From: a virus
IMG/VR virus record: IMGVR_UViG_3300017963_000100
Coordinates: 1-44,984 of that record
Strand: one strand, 5' to 3'
DNA: 44,984 nt
Within the stretch, counting starts at the first letter, position 1, and every line of letters begins with the position of its first letter. Below, one piece after another: positions 1,878 to 44,984 of this stretch. The position numbers and the translations under genes are program-made. Under the pieces are notes generated by a model. That model was not told the origin of the DNA, ran no database searches, and saw only the letters and a list, made by a program, of their open reading frames with translations.

Positions 1878-2660
1878 AGTAAAATGATTTAGAGGGTTGT
1901 ATTTGTCCCAAAATGGATCTGTCTTCTTTCGTGTAGTACCGGCCAGGGGTTCGCATATGTTCTTTGTACGGCGATCGTCGTCAACGGTCATATATCTAAG
2001 CATTGATACGACGGGGGACGCCTGCGCCGCTTTCCAACGCCCTGCACTATGCGCGGTTCCGTAGTTCGTACGGTAAACCGTTTCGATATAATAAGGACTT
2101 TCGCCGGCCAGGCCGATCCGCGCCATTGCTTGATCGCGTCCGATTTTATCTAAAAAGTCGCGGTACCCTAATCCCGTTTCGACGTTTTCGGCCAGTACGG
2201 ATCGAAGACTTTTCATATTATCATAAAAGTCAAGTTTTGCCCGGTCCGATACCATTGGCCCCATTGTCTGTTCTAGGCTTTCGACGTATTCGGCGTCTAC
2301 CCCCGCGTCGTTTAAGATACTTTCGATCGTTTGTTCGTCGATAACTTCGGCAACGTCCCCTTTTACGCTGAAAACTTCAACCGTACCCCCGAGTACGGCG
2401 GCGTTTACCGCGCTTTCTTGTCTTTCAACGTTTTTGTTGACATGGATAAAGCCCATTAAATGCGCGTGTATCATTGAAAGTTCGATCAATGTTTCGGCGT
2501 TGTTTCTGTATTGGGTTCCCGGTTTCGGGTCGGAGTCTTCGACGCGTTTGTAAAGTTCGTCGTATATGTTGTTCGCTATTTCTTCGCCGTAATACTTCGT
2601 AAGGCTCTTGAGATCTCTTTGATCAAGGGCGGCCTGTTTTTCGGGGGTTCGGAGCGCAAA
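1875..2660 (-). CDS. MuF-type head morphogenesis domain (phage Mu gp30/gpF-like), reached by -1 frameshift from the portal
   Basis: The domain begins FALRTPEKQAALDQRDLK, continues through a helical region (YYGEEIANNIYDELYKRVE) and ends with the MuF signature: YIETVYRTNYGTAHSAGRW, a DDRRTKNICEPL core, and DPFWDKYNPLNHF. MuF proteins act inside the head near the portal during assembly. No ATG or GTG occurs in this frame between the portal overlap and 2489, where only a TTG is found, and starting there would cut the conserved helices. The frame is continuous with the portal if the ribosome slips -1 in the T9 run at 2666-2658, giving about 680 residues to this TGA or about 740 to the stop at 1698. 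Alternatives are a one-base homopolymer error or a separate TTG start at 2489. Confidence 0.7.
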   Translation of the reverse strand, partial: FALRTPEKQAALDQRDLKSLTKYYGEEIANNIYDELYKRVEDSDPKPGTQYRNNAETLIELSMIHAHLMGFIHVNKNVERQESAVNAAVLGGTVEVFSVKGDVAEVIDEQTIESILNDAGVDAEYVESLEQTMGPMVSDRAKLDFYDNMKSLRSVLAENVETGLGYRDFLDKIGRDQAMARIGLAGESPYYIETVYRTNYGTAHSAGRWKAAQASPVVSMLRYMTVDDDRRTKNICEPLAGTTRKKTDPFWDKYNPLNHFT

Positions 2661-3919
2661 AAAAAAGCGTTTTCGTCTTTGTTGGAAAATTCGCCGCCGA
2701 TCGTTGTAACCTGCGGTTCGACTAATTGATCGTCGTCGCTTTCGGGCGCTCCGACATTGAACTTTTTATAAAACCATTTACCCGAAACCGGGATCCGCGC
2801 CTGTACTGCTTTGATCGTTTCGTCGTAACTCGGGTCGTATTCGTAAATGTATTTAAAAGTCGGTAATTTTAGAGGATCGATCGGCCCTTGGTTTAGTTCC
2901 AGGGTCCAACGTAAAAGAGTATTTACGGCGGGTTGTTGTTCGACCGTTGTTACCTTTTGCGCCCTGGCTTCAATTAGGTTTTCTTGGCTTGTCGTATCGC
3001 CTCGGTTACTGTACCGCGTGTCGTTCGTCAACGTGGCGACGCCGATCAAGGCTTTCGAGATCATACGGTTGAACATTTCGACTAAATCAATTATGTCCGT
3101 ACCTTTACTTGTTGCGTCGACGGTTTCGAGGCTTTCGATATTAGCCAGGGCGATCCCCGAGCTATTCGCGAGTTTTGTAAGCTCTTTTGCGATTAACGCG
3201 CCTTGTTCGGCGGTTGTATCTGCATTTTGTGAACCTTTGAAGATTGCCACGATCGACGGTATGATCGCTTTTTTGACATACAAAAGACCCGCTTTTATGC
3301 AAATTTTACGGAAAAACCAGGGCCAGTAAGCCTTTAATATAAGACTATTCCCGTTTAGGTTACCTTGTCGGACGTCGTGAGATACTGAAACATATTTGTA
3401 CGGCGCGTCCAGTACCAAACCGCCGGCCCGGTCTACCATCTCGCCTTTTTTGTTGAACCCGTACCGACTAGGATCGAGCGGTTTTAATCTATCGATTACC
3501 CAAACGCCGCCCGTAAGCGCGGGATCCCTCCAAATTACTTCGCAAATCACAAAACCATAGTCTAGGGCGTCGTAAAAGTTCGATACCTGCGCAATTAGGC
3601 GGCCGCCTTCGCGGGTAATATATTCGGTATAGAGTTCGGCCAGGGCGGGATCCTTTTCGTCGGCGGGTTGTACTATGTACGTCGTATTCCCAACAAACGT
3701 TTTAAACGTTTCCATTTCGGCGGACACTTGATCGTCTTCAAGCATTTTTTTAACGGTTTCGGCCAGTTCGTCGACCCCTAGATCGCTTAAAAATTCTTCG
3801 CTTTGAAAGCTAAATAATTCCTCGAGATCTTCGCCTTCAAATTCGGCGATCAAGTCTTTAGTTAGTTCGGCCGGGTTCGGTTTCGGCGCCGTTTGAAAAA
3901 GTCTTTTCCAAAAACTCAT
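2576..3919 (-). CDS. Portal protein, Mu gp29-like (DUF935)
   Basis: 447 residues in the standard frame. It matches the DUF935 portal pattern: an acidic N-terminal helix, FYDALDYGFVICEVIWR, a YVSVSHDVRQGNLNG stretch, LILKAYWPWFFRK, then GSQNADTTAE..LAKELTKL and the helical stem with MISKALIGVATLTNDTRYSNRG. Portals form the dodecameric DNA gate at the head vertex. Residues after about 420 (LRSEPPKNRPPLIKEISR onward) look like out-of-frame translation, because the -1 frame carries the better protein from there on. ATG 3919 follows the HExxH gene stop by one base. It is unusual that the portal lies in the leftward operon with replication genes, about 18 kb from the terminase. Confidence 0.88.
   Translation of the reverse strand: MSFWKRLFQTAPKPNPAELTKDLIAEFEGEDLEELFSFQSEEFLSDLGVDELAETVKKMLEDDQVSAEMETFKTFVGNTTYIVQPADEKDPALAELYTEYITREGGRLIAQVSNFYDALDYGFVICEVIWRDPALTGGVWVIDRLKPLDPSRYGFNKKGEMVDRAGGLVLDAPYKYVSVSHDVRQGNLNGNSLILKAYWPWFFRKICIKAGLLYVKKAIIPSIVAIFKGSQNADTTAEQGALIAKELTKLANSSGIALANIESLETVDATSKGTDIIDLVEMFNRMISKALIGVATLTNDTRYSNRGDTTSQENLIEARAQKVTTVEQQPAVNTLLRWTLELNQGPIDPLKLPTFKYIYEYDPSYDETIKAVQARIPVSGKWFYKKFNVGAPESDDDQLVEPQVTTIGGEFSNKDENAFFLRSEPPKNRPPLIKEISRALRSITAKK
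2658..2666 (-). other. Candidate -1 frameshift site (T9) joining portal to MuF
   Basis: On the minus strand the portal frame reads GCT TTT TTT TTG, which contains the slippery heptamers T TTT TTT and T TTT TTG. A -1 slip moves the ribosome into the open frame encoding the MuF domain. A missing T in the homopolymer would give the same picture. Confidence 0.5.
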
Positions 3920-3920
3920 A

Positions 3921-4517
3921 TTAGATCCCCTTACCTATGCGCAATTTTGGCGCGTTTTTTTCTAGCCAGGCGATCGAATCTTTACCCGCTCGGGTTGTAA
4001 CGCCGCCCCGGCGTATCGTTTCGGAACAAGATCGCAAATATTTACCCACGATCTTGATCTCTTTTTTCGTACAACCGTATTGTTTAAGCGTTTTCGCCCG
4101 TTCGGTTGCGCCTGGTAAAACACCATAGCGCCAAAAAATAAGCTCGAAACTAGTATGATACGCTTTACATTCGTAATTCGCCCGTTTGGTACTACTTCTT
4201 AGATAATTCCAAAGGAACTTCCAACCGCCGTCTTTATATTGTTTTACGTGGGTTGATTCGTGGGCGGCGATCACTACTTGATCCCAAAGCCCGAAACGCG
4301 GCGAAGGCGTACCGACACGAAAAGGAACATAGATCGTACGCTTGATCGTTGTTACAAACCCTTTCATAAAACGGCGATAACTCATTATTGAAAGCGCCAC
4401 AAGGATCCGCCCTATGATTCGCATTGAACTAGATCCGGTTTTTTGTTTTATTTTGGCGTCGTATTTGTCCGCCGTGTAGTTCCAAAAATTAATAACTGTT
4501 TTGGGGTCAATTGTCAT
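3921..4517 (-). CDS. HExxH zinc-metallopeptidase-like protein
   Basis: 198 residues from ATG 4517 (upstream in-frame codons are Arg-rich antisense of the lipoprotein and were excluded). A hydrophobic segment at about 32-46 could be a membrane or amphipathic helix. The zincin motif HESTH is at 86-90, followed by VKQY and, 26 residues on, YECKAY with Glu116 as candidate third ligand, as in gluzincin-like domains of the HExxHxxQ...E type. The substrate is unknown. The start overlaps the lipoprotein stop (ATGA-type, 4517-4514) and the end abuts the portal gene, so it is co-translated with both. It could be a virion-associated or host-directed protease, or a catalytically silent remnant. Confidence 0.65.
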   Translation of the reverse strand: MTIDPKTVINFWNYTADKYDAKIKQKTGSSSMRIIGRILVALSIMSYRRFMKGFVTTIKRTIYVPFRVGTPSPRFGLWDQVVIAAHESTHVKQYKDGGWKFLWNYLRSSTKRANYECKAYHTSFELIFWRYGVLPGATERAKTLKQYGCTKKEIKIVGKYLRSCSETIRRGGVTTRAGKDSIAWLEKNAPKLRIGKGI

Positions 4518-4807
4518 TCGATTACCTCGCAATCGTCCGCAGGTAAACAAGCATGTACGCCGGCGTCGGGGACAAAGCAACAAGTCCAGGGCAAACCGTC
4601 CGCGCTTTCGGTTTCGTCGCAGTCGGCGATCTCTAACCATAACCCGTCGGCGTCGCAGATTTCGGCGGCGTTGTCGCTACATTGTGTTGTTTCGGCCGTA
4701 CACTCGGGATCCGGTTCGCAACCCAAAACGGCCGCGATCAGACTTCCAAAACATACGATCCCTAGTATCGCGACGGCGTACGCCCTTACTTTGTAACGGT
4801 ATTTCAT
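4514..4807 (-). CDS. Cys-rich secreted lipoprotein
   Basis: 97 residues from ATG 4807, chosen for the TAGGAG ribosome site eight bases upstream. A basic n-region (KYRYKVR), a hydrophobic core (9-29) and a lipobox VLGC put the lipidated Cys at 30. The mature part has nine cysteines spaced as in small disulfide modules (PECTAETTQCSDNAAEICDA, then ADCDETE, TCC, HACLPADDC), a pattern common in secreted proteins of Myxococcota and relatives. It would sit in the periplasm or outer membrane. It is short for an outer spanin and lacks the Pro-rich look, but an o-spanin or superinfection-exclusion lipoprotein are both possible. It is flanked by a membrane transglycosylase and an HExxH protein in one operon. 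Confidence 0.65.
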   Translation of the reverse strand: MKYRYKVRAYAVAILGIVCFGSLIAAVLGCEPDPECTAETTQCSDNAAEICDADGLWLEIADCDETESADGLPWTCCFVPDAGVHACLPADDCEVIE

Positions 4808-5432
4808 TTTTTGCGCTCCTATCATGTAGACGATACCACAAATTGAACCGACGTTGTACGGCGTTTCGCGTTCGGGCGTTTGTTGGCTTGCATTTTCCGC
4901 AGGCGTACGCGGTTAAACCTTTTTCCAGTGTCTTACACCATTTGACATTTTCGCGAAGCCAACAACCGCCGCACATTATTTGCTCGTACTCGGTTTTATT
5001 GCGTCCGCAGTATTGACGACAACGCCGGCGGCCCTGCTTGCCAACTTGTAAGATCCCGATTTCGCCCCTTTTCCCGCGTACGTTTGTACGGTATTCGGAT
5101 TCGTAACGCCCCATTGATACCAATAAAAGAGCGGGGATCTTGAACTCTTGTTGCGCGGCGCTAAAACTCATTGATAACGCCTCATAATCGGGATCGGTTC
5201 GGGTTAACTTGCCTTCAATTATGTGAGTAAGGGCGGCGCGGATCTCGGTTTCTGTATATGTCGTCGGTTCGCTTGGTTTTGAACCTGATAAGAGGATCGC
5301 CACGCCGACAACGAACAAGGCGCAGGCCGTCCCCTTTACCATGTTTTTTAAAAGTTTAGAATCTTCTATAAAAAAAGCGGCTATTGTCTCCAAAAGTAAT
5401 AGAGCAACAAGCGCGTAAAGTACGTATAACAT
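4677..5432 (-). CDS. Membrane-anchored lytic transglycosylase (SLT-like)
   Basis: 251 residues from ATG 5432, which has AGGAG nine bases upstream (a TTG at 5456 is the alternative). Two transmembrane segments (about 2-22 and 31-49) are followed by an SLT-type fold: PALLLVSMGRYESEYR, with Glu111 as probable catalytic acid, and GEIGILQVG (123-131) as second motif. Extra cysteines (CRQYC, CGGC, YACGKC) suggest disulfides. It cuts peptidoglycan, either for DNA entry or lysis. Oddly, the frame runs 131 bases into the lipoprotein gene, and those last ~45 residues are Arg-rich shadow-like sequence; the natural end is probably near RRFNLWYRL. Confidence 0.65.
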   Translation of the reverse strand: MLYVLYALVALLLLETIAAFFIEDSKLLKNMVKGTACALFVVGVAILLSGSKPSEPTTYTETEIRAALTHIIEGKLTRTDPDYEALSMSFSAAQQEFKIPALLLVSMGRYESEYRTNVRGKRGEIGILQVGKQGRRRCRQYCGRNKTEYEQIMCGGCWLRENVKWCKTLEKGLTAYACGKCKPTNARTRNAVQRRFNLWYRLHDRSAKNEIPLQSKGVRRRDTRDRMFWKSDRGRFGLRTGSRVYGRNNTM

Positions 5433-5455
5433 TGTTTCTAACTCCTGTTTTTTCA

Positions 5456-5484
5456 ATTGTGCGGTAAAAACGTCGATTTTTCAA
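5456..5484 (-). promoter_or_regulatory. Possible sigma70-like promoter before the transglycosylase
   Basis: On the minus strand TTGAAA (5484-5479) is followed after 17 bases by CACAAT (5461-5456), in the only gap between the polymerase and transglycosylase genes. The -10 is weak (4 of 6), so this is a candidate only. It would let the transglycosylase-lipoprotein-HExxH-portal block be expressed apart from the upstream replication genes. Confidence 0.3.
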
Positions 5485-5488
5485 GTAT

Positions 5489-7753
5489 TTAGTCTTTACG
5501 GTAACGCCGCCCACGCCAACCCCCCGCCGCTTTGATCGGCCAACCCTTCGCCCACGCGGGGACGGTTCCCATTATCTGTTCTAACTCTTCAACCGACCCC
5601 GAACCCGCCGGGACTTCGGCCGCTAGTTCGTCGTGTACATGCAAAACGATCGGGTACCCGGCCTTTTCTGCGTTAACCAGGGCGTATGCGAGTATATCCC
5701 GCGCGACGGCCTGCGTTACGTTTTCGCAGAGTTTACCGCCGTACGTTTCCATACGGATCCAACCGATCGGCCCTTTCGTACTGTCCGAATTCCAACCCAT
5801 AAACGACAATTGATAGATCGGGTTTTTATGGTACCTATGAGTCGTTGAAAACAACCGGGGGGCGTGGTACGTGATTAAACGCCCCGAGGGAAGCCGACAA
5901 TACAACGTATCGTCTTTTACGCCGTAGGTAATGGATCGACACGCGTACGCCTTTCCCGGGTTCAAAACGGCGCAGACGGCCGCCCCCTCTAATCCGTAAT
6001 ACTCTTGTTTGTAGTTTCGAAACCCGGGCATTTCGCGCCACTGATCGCCCCAAAATTCAACGATCGCCGGCGAATCCTCGCGCCATTTTAAGATCGCGTC
6101 TTTTATTTCGTCGTCGTTTTTAAAATGTTTGTCGGCGCCGAACGCGCGCCACGCCCCGATCCAACCCTGGTACCCGCTTGCGAGTTCCGCAACTTTTCCG
6201 ATTTTCTTTCGTAAAGGATGACTTTCGCCGGTTCGTTCTTTGTAATCTAAAAACTCTTGAAACGGGATCCCGGTTATTTTGGCCGCGCTCATTTCGTAGA
6301 TCTTACCGTGGGATCTAAATACGTCTTGGCGCCATTTTTCGCCGGCCAGTTCGGCCAGTACAACCGCTTCGATCGCGGAAAAGTCCGAACAGATAAGATC
6401 CCGGCCAGGCGCGGCGGTAAATAATGCGCGCATACAACCCGACATAGCTTTTAAAGAGTTTTCAAAATAGTGCTCTAAAAGGTCGACGTCCCGGCCCGAC
6501 GAAATTAGTATTACGTCTTCGACTGCGTCCAGGTTCCAAGGCGCCGGCGCCATTTCCGACGATCGGCACCATTTACAAACCGCCGCCCCGGTTGCCTGGT
6601 AGTGTCCACAATTCCCGCAACGGTCGACGGCGGGGCCGCTTGTCGCTAGGTTATGGGGTTGAACCTTTGAACCGGCCCAACGTCCAGTACGCGCGACATG
6701 ATACCCGAACAAGTCCCGCAAGCGGTTATCGTCGCATCTTTGAACGTCGATCGCTTGTAGTTTTTTGACGCTTGCCATTGAAAGCCATTGACGGATCAAA
6801 AGTACGCGGCGGACGTTGAAAGGTAGATCGGATCGTTTTAGGGCGTCTTTTATCGTTTCGGCCTGGACGTTCGGCAAGTTAATCCCGTAATCGGCTATGT
6901 ATTCGCGTAATTTTTCGTATTCGTTGACGGTACCGACCCGGCCGCAGGTAAGGCGCACAAGTTCCCGCGTGTATTTGATTTCGGTTTGTCTGTACAGTTC
7001 CAAAAAGTGTTCCAGGGTTTCGACGTCGATATGTACGCCGCGCAGGTTGATCCGTTGACTTGCGATCCATACCTCGAGTTCGTCGGCGCTTAAATCGGGA
7101 CACAGTAACGACGCTTCGGCCTCGGTTTCAATATCCCCGATATTGTAAAAAATAAAGTTGTCGGCGTCTTTGGGGTCGTCTTCAAGGCGGATCCGTTGCC
7201 TTTTGTCTTTTTTCGTCGGGGAACGCGGGATCGAAAACTTGCGTATTAAGCGTTTTCCCTCTTTATCTTTTTGTGTTTTTGTCCCGAGTACTTCGGCCAG
7301 TTTTCCCAATTGCCCCGGCGCGGCGTACGCCCTGGCTTTCGCCTGCGCGCATCTTTGTTGCTCTAATGGTAACGGCGGCCAGTTCATACGCTTGAAGCAA
7401 ACGTAATGCCAGATCAGAAACTCAAAACCGGCGTTAAACGACTCTAAAAGGCCGCCGCCGGCGATATAATCGAACAGTTCTTGCGGGGGTTGCATACCCT
7501 GGACCCAAGACCGAGATCCGACGCCGTCGAACAAATCGTACGAAAGCATTAAGATCTCGGTCGTCGGGTCTTGGGCGTATACCGCCGCGCCTACTCCTTT
7601 GATCCCCGGTTTATTCGATACTAGGGATTGGTACCTTTCTTTTTTGTTGTTAAAAATGTAACCTGCTTTGGAAAACGTTTCGACGTCCAAAGTAGGGATC
7701 GCAGTTGACACCGAACAACCCGCCGGGGTTTCAAAGTAGGCGTTTAGGTTCAT
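5489..7753 (-). CDS. DNA polymerase I, family A, phage type, with 3'-5' exonuclease domain
   Basis: 754 residues. The N-terminal exonuclease is marked by TLDVETFS (Asp23/Glu25) and later FYNIGDIETEAE. The polymerase domain has motif A SDFSAIE (about 452-458), motif B RKKIGKVAELASGYQG, and motif C HVHDE (705-709). There is no 5'-nuclease domain. A four-Cys zinc-ribbon-like insert (CGNC at about 380, CKWC at about 394) lies between the exonuclease/thumb region and motif A. The gene follows the ssDNA-binding protein by one base and is the central replicase of the leftward operon. This polymerase type typically occurs together with the DUF2800 and DUF2815 proteins, as here. Confidence 0.93.
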   Translation of the reverse strand: MNLNAYFETPAGCSVSTAIPTLDVETFSKAGYIFNNKKERYQSLVSNKPGIKGVGAAVYAQDPTTEILMLSYDLFDGVGSRSWVQGMQPPQELFDYIAGGGLLESFNAGFEFLIWHYVCFKRMNWPPLPLEQQRCAQAKARAYAAPGQLGKLAEVLGTKTQKDKEGKRLIRKFSIPRSPTKKDKRQRIRLEDDPKDADNFIFYNIGDIETEAEASLLCPDLSADELEVWIASQRINLRGVHIDVETLEHFLELYRQTEIKYTRELVRLTCGRVGTVNEYEKLREYIADYGINLPNVQAETIKDALKRSDLPFNVRRVLLIRQWLSMASVKKLQAIDVQRCDDNRLRDLFGYHVARTGRWAGSKVQPHNLATSGPAVDRCGNCGHYQATGAAVCKWCRSSEMAPAPWNLDAVEDVILISSGRDVDLLEHYFENSLKAMSGCMRALFTAAPGRDLICSDFSAIEAVVLAELAGEKWRQDVFRSHGKIYEMSAAKITGIPFQEFLDYKERTGESHPLRKKIGKVAELASGYQGWIGAWRAFGADKHFKNDDEIKDAILKWREDSPAIVEFWGDQWREMPGFRNYKQEYYGLEGAAVCAVLNPGKAYACRSITYGVKDDTLYCRLPSGRLITYHAPRLFSTTHRYHKNPIYQLSFMGWNSDSTKGPIGWIRMETYGGKLCENVTQAVARDILAYALVNAEKAGYPIVLHVHDELAAEVPAGSGSVEELEQIMGTVPAWAKGWPIKAAGGWRGRRYRKD

Positions 7754-30899: not shown

Positions 30900-31349
30900 A
30901 TGAACGACGAAACAAAAGAAACGGCGGCCGAAGTGATCGAAACGAACGAACAACCCGAAGCGACGGACGCCGAACGGCCAAAAACAAAACTTGAAAAAGC
31001 GCGCGAAGCAGTCGGGGATCTAAGTAAGGCACTCGAGAAAGACGCGGCGGCGAAGGGTTGGGACATTGCCGAAGACGACGAATTTCAAGAAACTTCGGCC
31101 CCGCCCAAGGTTCGACTATTAAGGCGATCACGAATAGGCGACGCGATAACGGCCGAACGAATCGCCCGTAAACATTTCGGCGGCGGTAAAGATGATTACG
31201 AACCAACCGTACAAGAGATTTCGATCGCGAAGTTTTCTTTAATAGCAAAATTCAACGGGGAACACTGGCCGATCCCCGATATAGAGGCGTTAGGTGAAGA
31301 TTTTTTTACGCACGTATTCGTCCGGTTTGCGAAGTATCTGGGCTTGTAG
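30900..31349 (+). CDS. Tail assembly chaperone, short form (P2 E-like)
   Basis: 149 residues. Acidic, disordered N-terminus (about 1-60) and a helical core (RSRIGDAITAERIARKHFG, VQEISIAKFSLIAKFNGEHW, DIEALGEDFFTHVFVRF). Lies between tube and baseplate as gpE does. It ends TAG 31347-31349, after the slippery T7 that gives the extended form. Confidence 0.8.
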   Translation: MNDETKETAAEVIETNEQPEATDAERPKTKLEKAREAVGDLSKALEKDAAAKGWDIAEDDEFQETSAPPKVRLLRRSRIGDAITAERIARKHFGGGKDDYEPTVQEISIAKFSLIAKFNGEHWPIPDIEALGEDFFTHVFVRFAKYLGL

Positions 31350-42857: not shown

Positions 42858-44984
42858 ATGTCAAGAAATGTAATACCAAGCGACGGGCGTTTTAATAAAC
42901 CCGAGCTTGACGCGTCTTTACTGGTAGCGGCCGGCGGGTCGTTTGTTGATCACGTTTCGGGAATCAATGCAGAAAACGACGGCGAAGGCCATAGGATCGA
43001 CGGCCTGGACGAACTAGTTGTACGGGTTGCAGTTACGGGAACAATGCCGGCCGATTCCGAAGTAGTAATAACGCCGATCGTTCACGGGTTCCCCGACCTT
43101 GCCGACATTACGTTATTGTTGCCGACGATTACCGACGGTATTACGTCGGTACGGCCTGCGGTTCTTTCGGACATTGAAACGATCCGCGACGCGGACTTGT
43201 TGAAAATAACATATCGTTTCAAGCAGGGGGGCGCCGACTATACGGTAACGGCGATCAGTCTGCAAATAAAAAAAAAGTCTAGCGGGGGCGGCGTAGCGTC
43301 CGAAGTAGTGATCGAACAAATCGGATCCGCAACCTTCGCAAGTGTTCAAGACGCAATAAACCAGATCGGATCGGCCGGTTCTAGTTCCGAAGGGTACATA
43401 ACCGACGCCGGCGGGGGTTCTATCGACGTTGCGACGGGGGCGGGTTTTATTCGTGTTACTGATTCGCATAACTCCACATTAAAAGCGTTTGATTGGGCCG
43501 CGTCGTCGGGGGTTGCCATACCGTCGGATACTGCGCGATACGTTGGGGTCGAATACAACGCCGGCGCGCCTCAAATTGTGATCAAAACGGTTGATAGTTG
43601 GGATTGGCATACCGAATTCAGATTAGGATCCGTAGTAAACGAAGGCGGGACGCTTCATATATTGAACAACCCGCAAAGATTAAGCGACGGGATCGCGCAT
43701 ATTTTCGAACGTTTTTACGAGTGTCGACCCCTGGAACGGGCCGCCCGTATCGGCGGTATTATTGCCGGCGAAACTGGTACGCGTAATTTAACCGTTTCGG
43801 CCGGCGAATTGTACGACGGTCTAAACGAATTTGACGTAGGGGGGATCGATACGAGCGGGGCGGATACGTTCGACGCGTATTACCGGGACGGCGGCGGCGG
43901 TTTTACGAAAGTACCAGGCGCGACGCAATGGGATAATTTACAATACGACGACGATTCAGGTACGTTGCAACCTTTGGGCGTTTCAAAATATGGCGTACAT
44001 TGGATTTATATTGAAGCCGATAACAATTTAATTTTAATGTACGGCGAAGACGAATATAATACGCAAGCGGCCGCCGAAAATTCAAACCCGCCGGCGTCGG
44101 TACCCTTACGATTACAGGTACACGGGCGTTTGATTAGTCGTATAATTTTCCAACAAAACGCCGCGACGGCGATCGAGTTTCAAAGCGTTTTTGATACTCA
44201 ATTCGATCCGACTTTGGTTAGCTCACATACGGCGCTTTCGAACGTTACCGCCGATCAACACCATAACGAAGATCACGCGGCCCGACACAAAGGCGGCGGG
44301 GCGGACGTAATCGACAACGCGACAACAACGATCGCGGGGTTAATGAGTGGACCCGATAAACTAAAACTTGATACCCTGGCCGCCGGGGACGTAACAACCC
44401 CCGTACGGAATGAAACGGGCGGCCCCCTTTCTAAACACAAATTGATCGCCGTCGTCGGTTACAGCGGGACTCACTCGCGGCCCCTTGTAAATTACGCCGA
44501 TAAAGATAACGCAGCGTTGCGCCCTTGCATTGCGATCTTAATGGCGGATCTAGCAGATAACACAAACGCCGACGCCTTGGTAGTTGGAACCCTAACGAAC
44601 GTTGATACGTCGGCGTGGTCAATTACTGATCAATTAGTTCTAGGGGCAAGCGGGGCGATCTCGCGTCCGCCGCCCGATCAAGACCCTTTTACGGGCGAAA
44701 TTCAGAATATTGGATCCGTTTCGGTCGTTAACGCAACGATCGGCCAAATTGTGATCTCTATTGACGGACAAAACCCAATAACCGCCGGGCAAGTTTTCGC
44801 GGCCGCAGGGTCGGACGGGACGCCGTCGAAAACAAACCCGTATGTTACGAACTCCGATCCAAGGTTAAGCGACGATCGAGATCCAACCGCCCACGCAAGC
44901 GATCACGAACCCGGCGGCGGGGACGCTATGACCGTAGACGCGGCCGCCGGTACTGGTAGTCTAAGGACGTTGGGAACGGGCGCC
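42858..44984 (+). CDS. Tail fibre 2, N-terminal part (continues at base 1)
   Basis: The gene begins at ATG 42858 (AAAGGAG site) and stays open to the window end; over the circle it continues at 1-979, total 1001 residues. Residues 1-142 are the anchor domain shared with the fibre at 41014, ending KKKSS. Next come beta-rich shaft modules (RYVGVEYNAGAPQIVIK, LILMYGEDEYN), a HHNEDHAARHKGGGADVI collar-type motif with GLMSGPDKLKLD, a GTLTNV.TSAWSI module, and NPYVTNSDPRLSDDRDPTAH linker repeats typical of long fibres. A second receptor-binding protein on the same attachment site. Confidence 0.88.
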   Translation, partial: MSRNVIPSDGRFNKPELDASLLVAAGGSFVDHVSGINAENDGEGHRIDGLDELVVRVAVTGTMPADSEVVITPIVHGFPDLADITLLLPTITDGITSVRPAVLSDIETIRDADLLKITYRFKQGGADYTVTAISLQIKKKSSGGGVASEVVIEQIGSATFASVQDAINQIGSAGSSSEGYITDAGGGSIDVATGAGFIRVTDSHNSTLKAFDWAASSGVAIPSDTARYVGVEYNAGAPQIVIKTVDSWDWHTEFRLGSVVNEGGTLHILNNPQRLSDGIAHIFERFYECRPLERAARIGGIIAGETGTRNLTVSAGELYDGLNEFDVGGIDTSGADTFDAYYRDGGGGFTKVPGATQWDNLQYDDDSGTLQPLGVSKYGVHWIYIEADNNLILMYGEDEYNTQAAAENSNPPASVPLRLQVHGRLISRIIFQQNAATAIEFQSVFDTQFDPTLVSSHTALSNVTADQHHNEDHAARHKGGGADVIDNATTTIAGLMSGPDKLKLDTLAAGDVTTPVRNETGGPLSKHKLIAVVGYSGTHSRPLVNYADKDNAALRPCIAILMADLADNTNADALVVGTLTNVDTSAWSITDQLVLGASGAISRPPPDQDPFTGEIQNIGSVSVVNATIGQIVISIDGQNPITAGQVFAAAGSDGTPSKTNPYVTNSDPRLSDDRDPTAHASDHEPGGGDAMTVDAAAGTGSLRTLGTGA
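43271..43277 (+). other. Slippery heptamer A AAA AAG in fibre 2
   Basis: Same place as in fibre 1, again within an A9 run. A -1 slip gives V then TAG (43280-43282), a 141-residue product consisting of the anchor domain only. A GC-rich hairpin candidate starts six bases downstream. Confidence 0.45.
44885..44984. repeat. 100-bp direct repeat, right copy
   Basis: Identical to 1-100; shows that the sequence closes into a circle of 44,884 bp. Confidence 0.95.

Follow-up and report, generated by a model that had tools for sequence, protein, structure and literature searches.

A putative -1 recoding site joining portal and MuF in a viral genome and its relatives

The DNA analyzed here (the window) is a virus record of 45 kb (44,984 nt). 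Because it carries a 100-base direct terminal repeat at 1-100 and 44885-44984, the genome is probably complete and circularly assembled. A portal gene on its minus strand overlaps a MuF domain that lies in the -1 frame. The features discussed below are as follows.

3919 to 2576, minus strand: portal gene, zero frame, 447 aa, Mu gp29-like (PF06074, phrog_113)
2666 to 2660, minus strand: slippery heptamer T_TTT_TTT, in frame
2659 to 2576, minus strand: end of the portal made without a slip, zero frame (LRSEPPKNRPPLIKEISRALRSITAKK, then stop); it overlaps the MuF frame
2666 to 1878, minus strand: MuF domain, -1 frame (PF04233, E 5e-8; phrog_220, E 5e-15)
1877 to 1875, minus strand: in-frame TGA within the MuF frame
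1874 to 1698, minus strand: MuF C-terminal tail past the TGA (RSTVSELTESYV...NDYES, TAA)
30900 to 31349, plus strand: likely tail assembly chaperone gene; it too has a -1 slip site, T_TTT_TTT (about 31301)

The frame break and its slip site

The portal ORF matched Portal_Mu (PF06074) with an E-value of 5.5e-35 (121.7 bits; cut-off 23.9) and also matched phrog_113; its ATG is preceded by an SD-like GGGGAT (anti-SD, -7.5 kcal/mol). When portals of the window clade were used as queries against 84,980 genomes, no relatives were found. The initial annotation placed GCT TTT TTT TTG in the portal frame, and we found the run to be exactly A9 on the plus strand at 2658-2666, that is, T9 on the coding minus strand, read as GAC GAA AAC GCT TTT TTT TTG CGC. 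The window holds only three homopolymer runs of at least nine bases. The in-frame heptamer of the X_XXY_YYZ form is T_TTT_TTT at 2666-2660, and a second one, T_TTT_TTG at 2657-2663, overlaps it. Past the slip, the portal frame continues for about 27 codons to TAG, a stretch overlapping MuF that had gone unmentioned before.

The -1 frame, which is open already upstream of the run, reads FALRTPEKQAALDQRDLK... after it and leads into the Phage_Mu_F domain, so the claim that good protein sequence continues in this frame was borne out by the PF04233 match (34.1 bits, cut-off 29.6; 48.9-66.6 bits in relatives). No ATG, GTG or TTG lies between the run and a TTG at 2489, as had also been claimed, and no Shine-Dalgarno sequence precedes that TTG (best anti-SD, -2.2 kcal/mol vs. 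-7.5 at the portal start). Folding for simple hairpins found no such stimulator at the window slip site, and no SD-like element was found upstream of it. Hairpins and SD-like elements are common stimulators, but not obligatory, for programmed -1 ribosomal frameshifting. An AlphaFold model of MuF built from six sequences was too poor for use (mean pLDDT 43.7).

The MuF frame of the window is interrupted by the TGA at a position where four of the five close relatives described below have Cys (TGC or TGT) and L002 codes Glu. Because of this codon, the window's copy would yield a shortened fusion. The 58 codons 3' of it are still conserved, with the tail aligned in L003, L015 and L018; both the TGA and the tail are additions to the initial annotation. 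The TGA may be a recent nonsense mutation, a base error or a site of readthrough. Selenocysteine was considered and rejected, as there was no SECIS-like fold and no Rfam match there. Since eight other genes of this genome end normally in TGA, we claim no recoding at this codon.

Conservation of the junction

We compared the window with a clade of five related viral contigs (L002/L014, L003, L015, L018 and L030). Portal identity to the window was 61% in L002/L014, 50% in L003, 63% in L015 and 50% in L018, and MuF identity of the five was about 37–70% (37% in L030). Alignment of relatives for the frame break, a test set beforehand, showed that the break and a -1 heptamer were kept in five of five; the close relatives had neither an in-frame fusion with ten T nor a separate MuF gene that starts independently. 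In all five, the portal ORF shares 91–133 nt with a MuF ORF lying in the -1 frame, and the zero-frame portal tail runs 18-27 codons past the slip. MuF lacks an early start and lies in the -1 phase in all six clade members, the window included. The slip codons are AGT TTT TTT TTG in L002 and L030, GGT TTT TTT TTC in L015, and CGT TTT TTT CAG or CAA in L003 and L018, which makes the run T9 in the first three contigs and T7 in the other two. An in-frame T_TTT_TTT occurs once per portal ORF in each of the six; all 6 of these heptamers, among 2,659 codons, fall at the junction, which is more than chance would give. SD-like elements lie 9-10 nt ahead of the heptamer in L003 and L018 and are absent at the T9 sites.

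Selection was then examined in both frames. Between the window and L015, pN/pS was 0.14 in the overlap and 0.31 in the part of MuF ahead of its first ATG (45 codons). This pre-ATG part, reachable only from portal, is under purifying selection. Synonymous change between L003 and L018 was 0.21 in the overlap (5557-5653 and 6107-6212, respectively) and 0.85 just after it. Low synonymous change is expected from double coding, and the low value may reflect either double coding or an RNA element that simple folding, limited to hairpins, has missed.

Next, a search with a Mu-type portal profile gave 80 loci in bacterial genomes and another 80 in viral contigs; the named bacterial records were all Bacteroidota (Flavobacterium, Chryseobacterium, Dysgonomonas, Sphingobacterium, Rikenella, Flammeovirga and others). 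The 160 rows consisted of 13 duplicates, 8 loci running off contig ends, 7 in-frame fusions, 3 odd cases and 129 split junctions. Because its seed portals were drawn from loci with the feature, the search describes its own clade, not all Mu-type portals; its counts come from related sequences and are not independent. MuF was in the -1 frame at 129 of 129 non-redundant, unfused, intact junctions, and an X_XXY_YYZ heptamer was present at 128 of them. In 99 of the 129 the heptamer was T_TTT_TTC, placed exactly 12 nt ahead of the portal stop, with A_AAT_TTT, T_TTT_TTT and similar sites elsewhere, and T_TTT_TTC was found 0 times in 40,367 other portal codons. In about 90% of the T_TTT_TTC group, a stem of at least 6 bp starts from the first base after the stop (spacer, 6 nt), compared with 11% at random portal positions used as a control. 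Covariation in 22 equal-length hairpins exceeded that in all 500 shuffles: 97.7% of cells pair, and five pairs change on both sides, one stem pair being mostly gapped by the aligner. Three loci that had appeared not to be -1 cases (L134, L214 and L234) were set aside as probably broken ORFs, the portal of L134 being split; the T_TTT_TTC site is kept in L234 and in L059, which is on the same contig as L214.

In-frame fusions occur naturally in this family, in the 7 survey loci and also in L071. The Flavobacterium covae locus L084 reads GAT TTT TTT CGA CTA AGC CCC. The split form, GAT TTT TTC GAC TAA GCCCC, has one T fewer. The DFFRLSP that L084 encodes in frame is exactly the predicted frameshift product; the extra T may be real or an assembly error. 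In Porphyromonas phage008a (BK068090), portal–MuF is a single fused CDS. Taken together, the sequences suggest that the recoded arrangement is common to the window phage and at least 130 relatives.

The arrangement also occurs in isolated phages. Elizabethkingia phage TCUEAP3 has AAT TTT TTC at the junction, with MuF annotated 276 nt late, and Winogradskyella Peternella_1 has the arrangement with A_AAA_AAA. Flavobacterium fF4 also has the arrangement with A_AAA_AAA, but a GTG stands at +9 too. The portal ends in A_AAA_AAG TAA in Bacillus vB_BpsS-36 and PS1 and in G_GGA_AAG TAA in Eoghan, Finn, GBK1 and Rossellomorea phiT1, and in these Bacillota phages -1 frame MuF sequence precedes the annotated MuF start. 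At six loci from Bacillus, Geobacillus and Rossellomorea (L245, L247, L244, L248, L242 and L239), MuF is annotated as starting 27-228 nt past the portal stop; because the -1 MuF frame begins before that stop, these starts are likely mis-annotated. Staphylococcus MVC_VPHSA1 has G_GGA_AAA without a long -1 ORF, and Hanky phage p00 is ambiguous, because an overlapping ATG is present besides T_TTT_TTC. Portal and MuF are separate genes in Mu_3F6, Mushu, Helicobacter prophages, StM171, lotta8-1 and FPSV-S1. In a distant relative, L034, the heptamer lies directly before the portal stop, with an SD-like GGAGGT about 9-11 nt upstream. A PBECR3 nuclease-like domain (PF18812, E 2.3e-8) is encoded in the MuF frame of that locus (4488-6029) as well, and this possible effector would be dosed by the frameshift.

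Ribosomal slippage and its rivals

The rival that deserves most attention is that RNA polymerase slips on T9, so that some U10 transcripts are read straight from portal into MuF. It is a serious one at the T9 sites because no stimulator was found there: the T9 of the window, L002, L015 and L030 is long enough for slippage, transcriptional realignment being recognized by a run of about nine or more A/T in the DNA, and neither an SD nor a hairpin is present at these four sites, in contrast to the two T7 sites with their SD-like elements. However, the T7 sites of L003 and L018 and the T6C, A6G and G3A3G sites, which fall below that length, keep the -1 phase and the X_XXY_YYZ codon register. RNA polymerase would not slip efficiently on sites this short or mixed. 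In addition, another gene of the window, likely a tail assembly chaperone by its place after the sheath and tube genes, likewise uses a T7 heptamer: T_TTT_TTT lies about 48 nt before its stop and is accompanied by a 65-codon -1 ORF to 31495, as in the classical frameshift of phages, suggesting that the phage relies on this heptamer elsewhere. We therefore regard polymerase slippage as possible but rather doubtful. Ribosomal slippage is best supported for the family by its in-register heptamers, canonically spaced hairpins and SD-like elements (L003, L018 and L034), and in the window phage the slip would likewise be mainly ribosomal.

The frame break might instead be a homopolymer sequencing or assembly error in a gene that is really an in-frame fusion. 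Such runs are error-prone and the family does contain fusions, but the break is kept with T9 or T7 in five independent contigs, the 129 survey junctions, bacterial and viral, show the same, and the L003/L018 overlap is under synonymous constraint. Because T7 and T9, two bases apart, leave the same -1 break, a miscount is unlikely; for the family the error reading is already refuted, and for the window we give it hardly any credence. Almost as improbable is that the window MuF is a decaying, frameshifted pseudogene. The nonsense TGA in place of a Cys codon, in a genome where TGA normally stops translation, would fit decay, yet relatives without the TGA have the same frame break, the frame is under purifying selection and the sequence past the TGA is still conserved. 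MuF could also be a separate product, translated by coupling or from an internal start, with the overlap incidental, as separate genes with an ATG are the rule in Mu, lotta8-1, Mushu and StM171. This, too, is very unlikely here: there is no ATG or GTG from -20 to +30 of the portal stop at 116 of 129 junctions, the pre-ATG part of MuF is conserved, and heptamers recur at the junction in lineages of different sequence.

Copy number of MuF and known systems

The reading we favor, programmed -1 recoding, would work as follows. The portal mRNA would carry a -1 slip site at U_UUU_UUU. The majority of ribosomes would read about 27 further zero-frame codons and stop, giving ordinary portal, and a minority would move back one base into the MuF frame, giving portal with a C-terminal MuF. 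Both forms would co-assemble into one mixed ring, in which the slip frequency would set the number of MuF domains per head (about 1-2 of 12) and copy number would be the selected trait. With twelve subunits, slippage of 8–17% would give one to two covalently fused MuF copies. We think it very probable that recoding yields mostly portal and some portal–MuF, with MuF fixed at about 1–2 per dodecamer.

Parts of this arrangement have precedents. The slip site of lambda gpG/gpGT is GGGAAAG. The SPP1 17.5/17.5* tail assembly chaperone slips at UUUUUUC (PMC6316719). In both systems an X_XXY_YYZ -1 slip fixes the ratio of a short to an extended protein, as proposed here, but the products are non-virion tail-assembly chaperones, unlike the portal. 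In SPP1, the MuF protein gp7 attaches to the portal and is present in 1-2 copies (PMC5576092), or few copies (PMC6316719). SPP1 gp6/gp7 and Mu gp29/gp30 are the same functional pair as portal and MuF of the window, but they are encoded by separate genes and attach non-covalently. Natural portal–MuF fusions, to which the initial annotation had pointed, are indeed found in frame in Microbacterium cluster EA/EB phages (PMC7302621), as in phage008a and L084; these have the same two domains in the same order as the window product, but carry MuF on every portal subunit and use no recoding.

The closest precedent is Emery, a Brevibacillus/Paenibacillus phage in which gp4 and gp5 share one start and the second of two products (58.9 and 82.5 kDa predicted) arises by putative ribosomal slippage (PMC4168068). 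The slipped product was annotated in 2014 as a head morphogenesis protein whose second part is SPP1 gp7-like (PMC4168068). Emery thus resembles the window in both the slip and the second part, but its portal was not recognized, its first part seems to be of another portal family and it was a single phage without conservation analysis. We re-read this locus (L250, KC595516, 3171-5350) and found T_TTT_TTA at position -15 relative to the stop, together with a -1 ORF resembling MuF; the first part lies directly after the terminase and has a weak Portal_T4 match (E 4.8e-4) that is below the curated cut-off. From its sequence, gp4/gp5 resembles a portal of T4 type with MuF attached through a T_TTT_TTA slip, which would extend the device to another portal family. 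The fusion by frameshift had been proposed as a new way of setting copy number. This stands for the general pattern, in that we found no published description of portal–MuF recoding as such in a search of mainly open-access literature, but the slip itself had been annotated in Emery. Widespread portal–MuF recoding thus appears to be new, whereas in-frame fusions and frameshifted tail chaperones were already known.

We lean, with some reserve, toward the wider reading that -1 recoding of portal–MuF is a general tailed-phage device that evolved several times with different heptamers (U_UUU_UUU, U_UUU_UUC, A_AAU_UUU, A_AAA_AAA, A_AAA_AAG, G_GGA_AAG and U_UUU_UUA) and different stimulators (a hairpin in Bacteroidota, SD-like elements in others), making asymmetric rings with a set number of covalent MuF. 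Our results also suggest that many annotated MuF genes, among them those of isolated phages of Bacillus, Elizabethkingia and Winogradskyella, may begin too late or be treated as separate. Head proteins attached to the portal are present in low copy number, and a slip frequency coded in the portal gene would explain how phages set that number; this predicts portal rings with about 1–2 fused subunits. MuF proteins carry toxin domains in many temperate phages (PMC5576092), and the dose of MuF toxin delivered may be set by the same slip.
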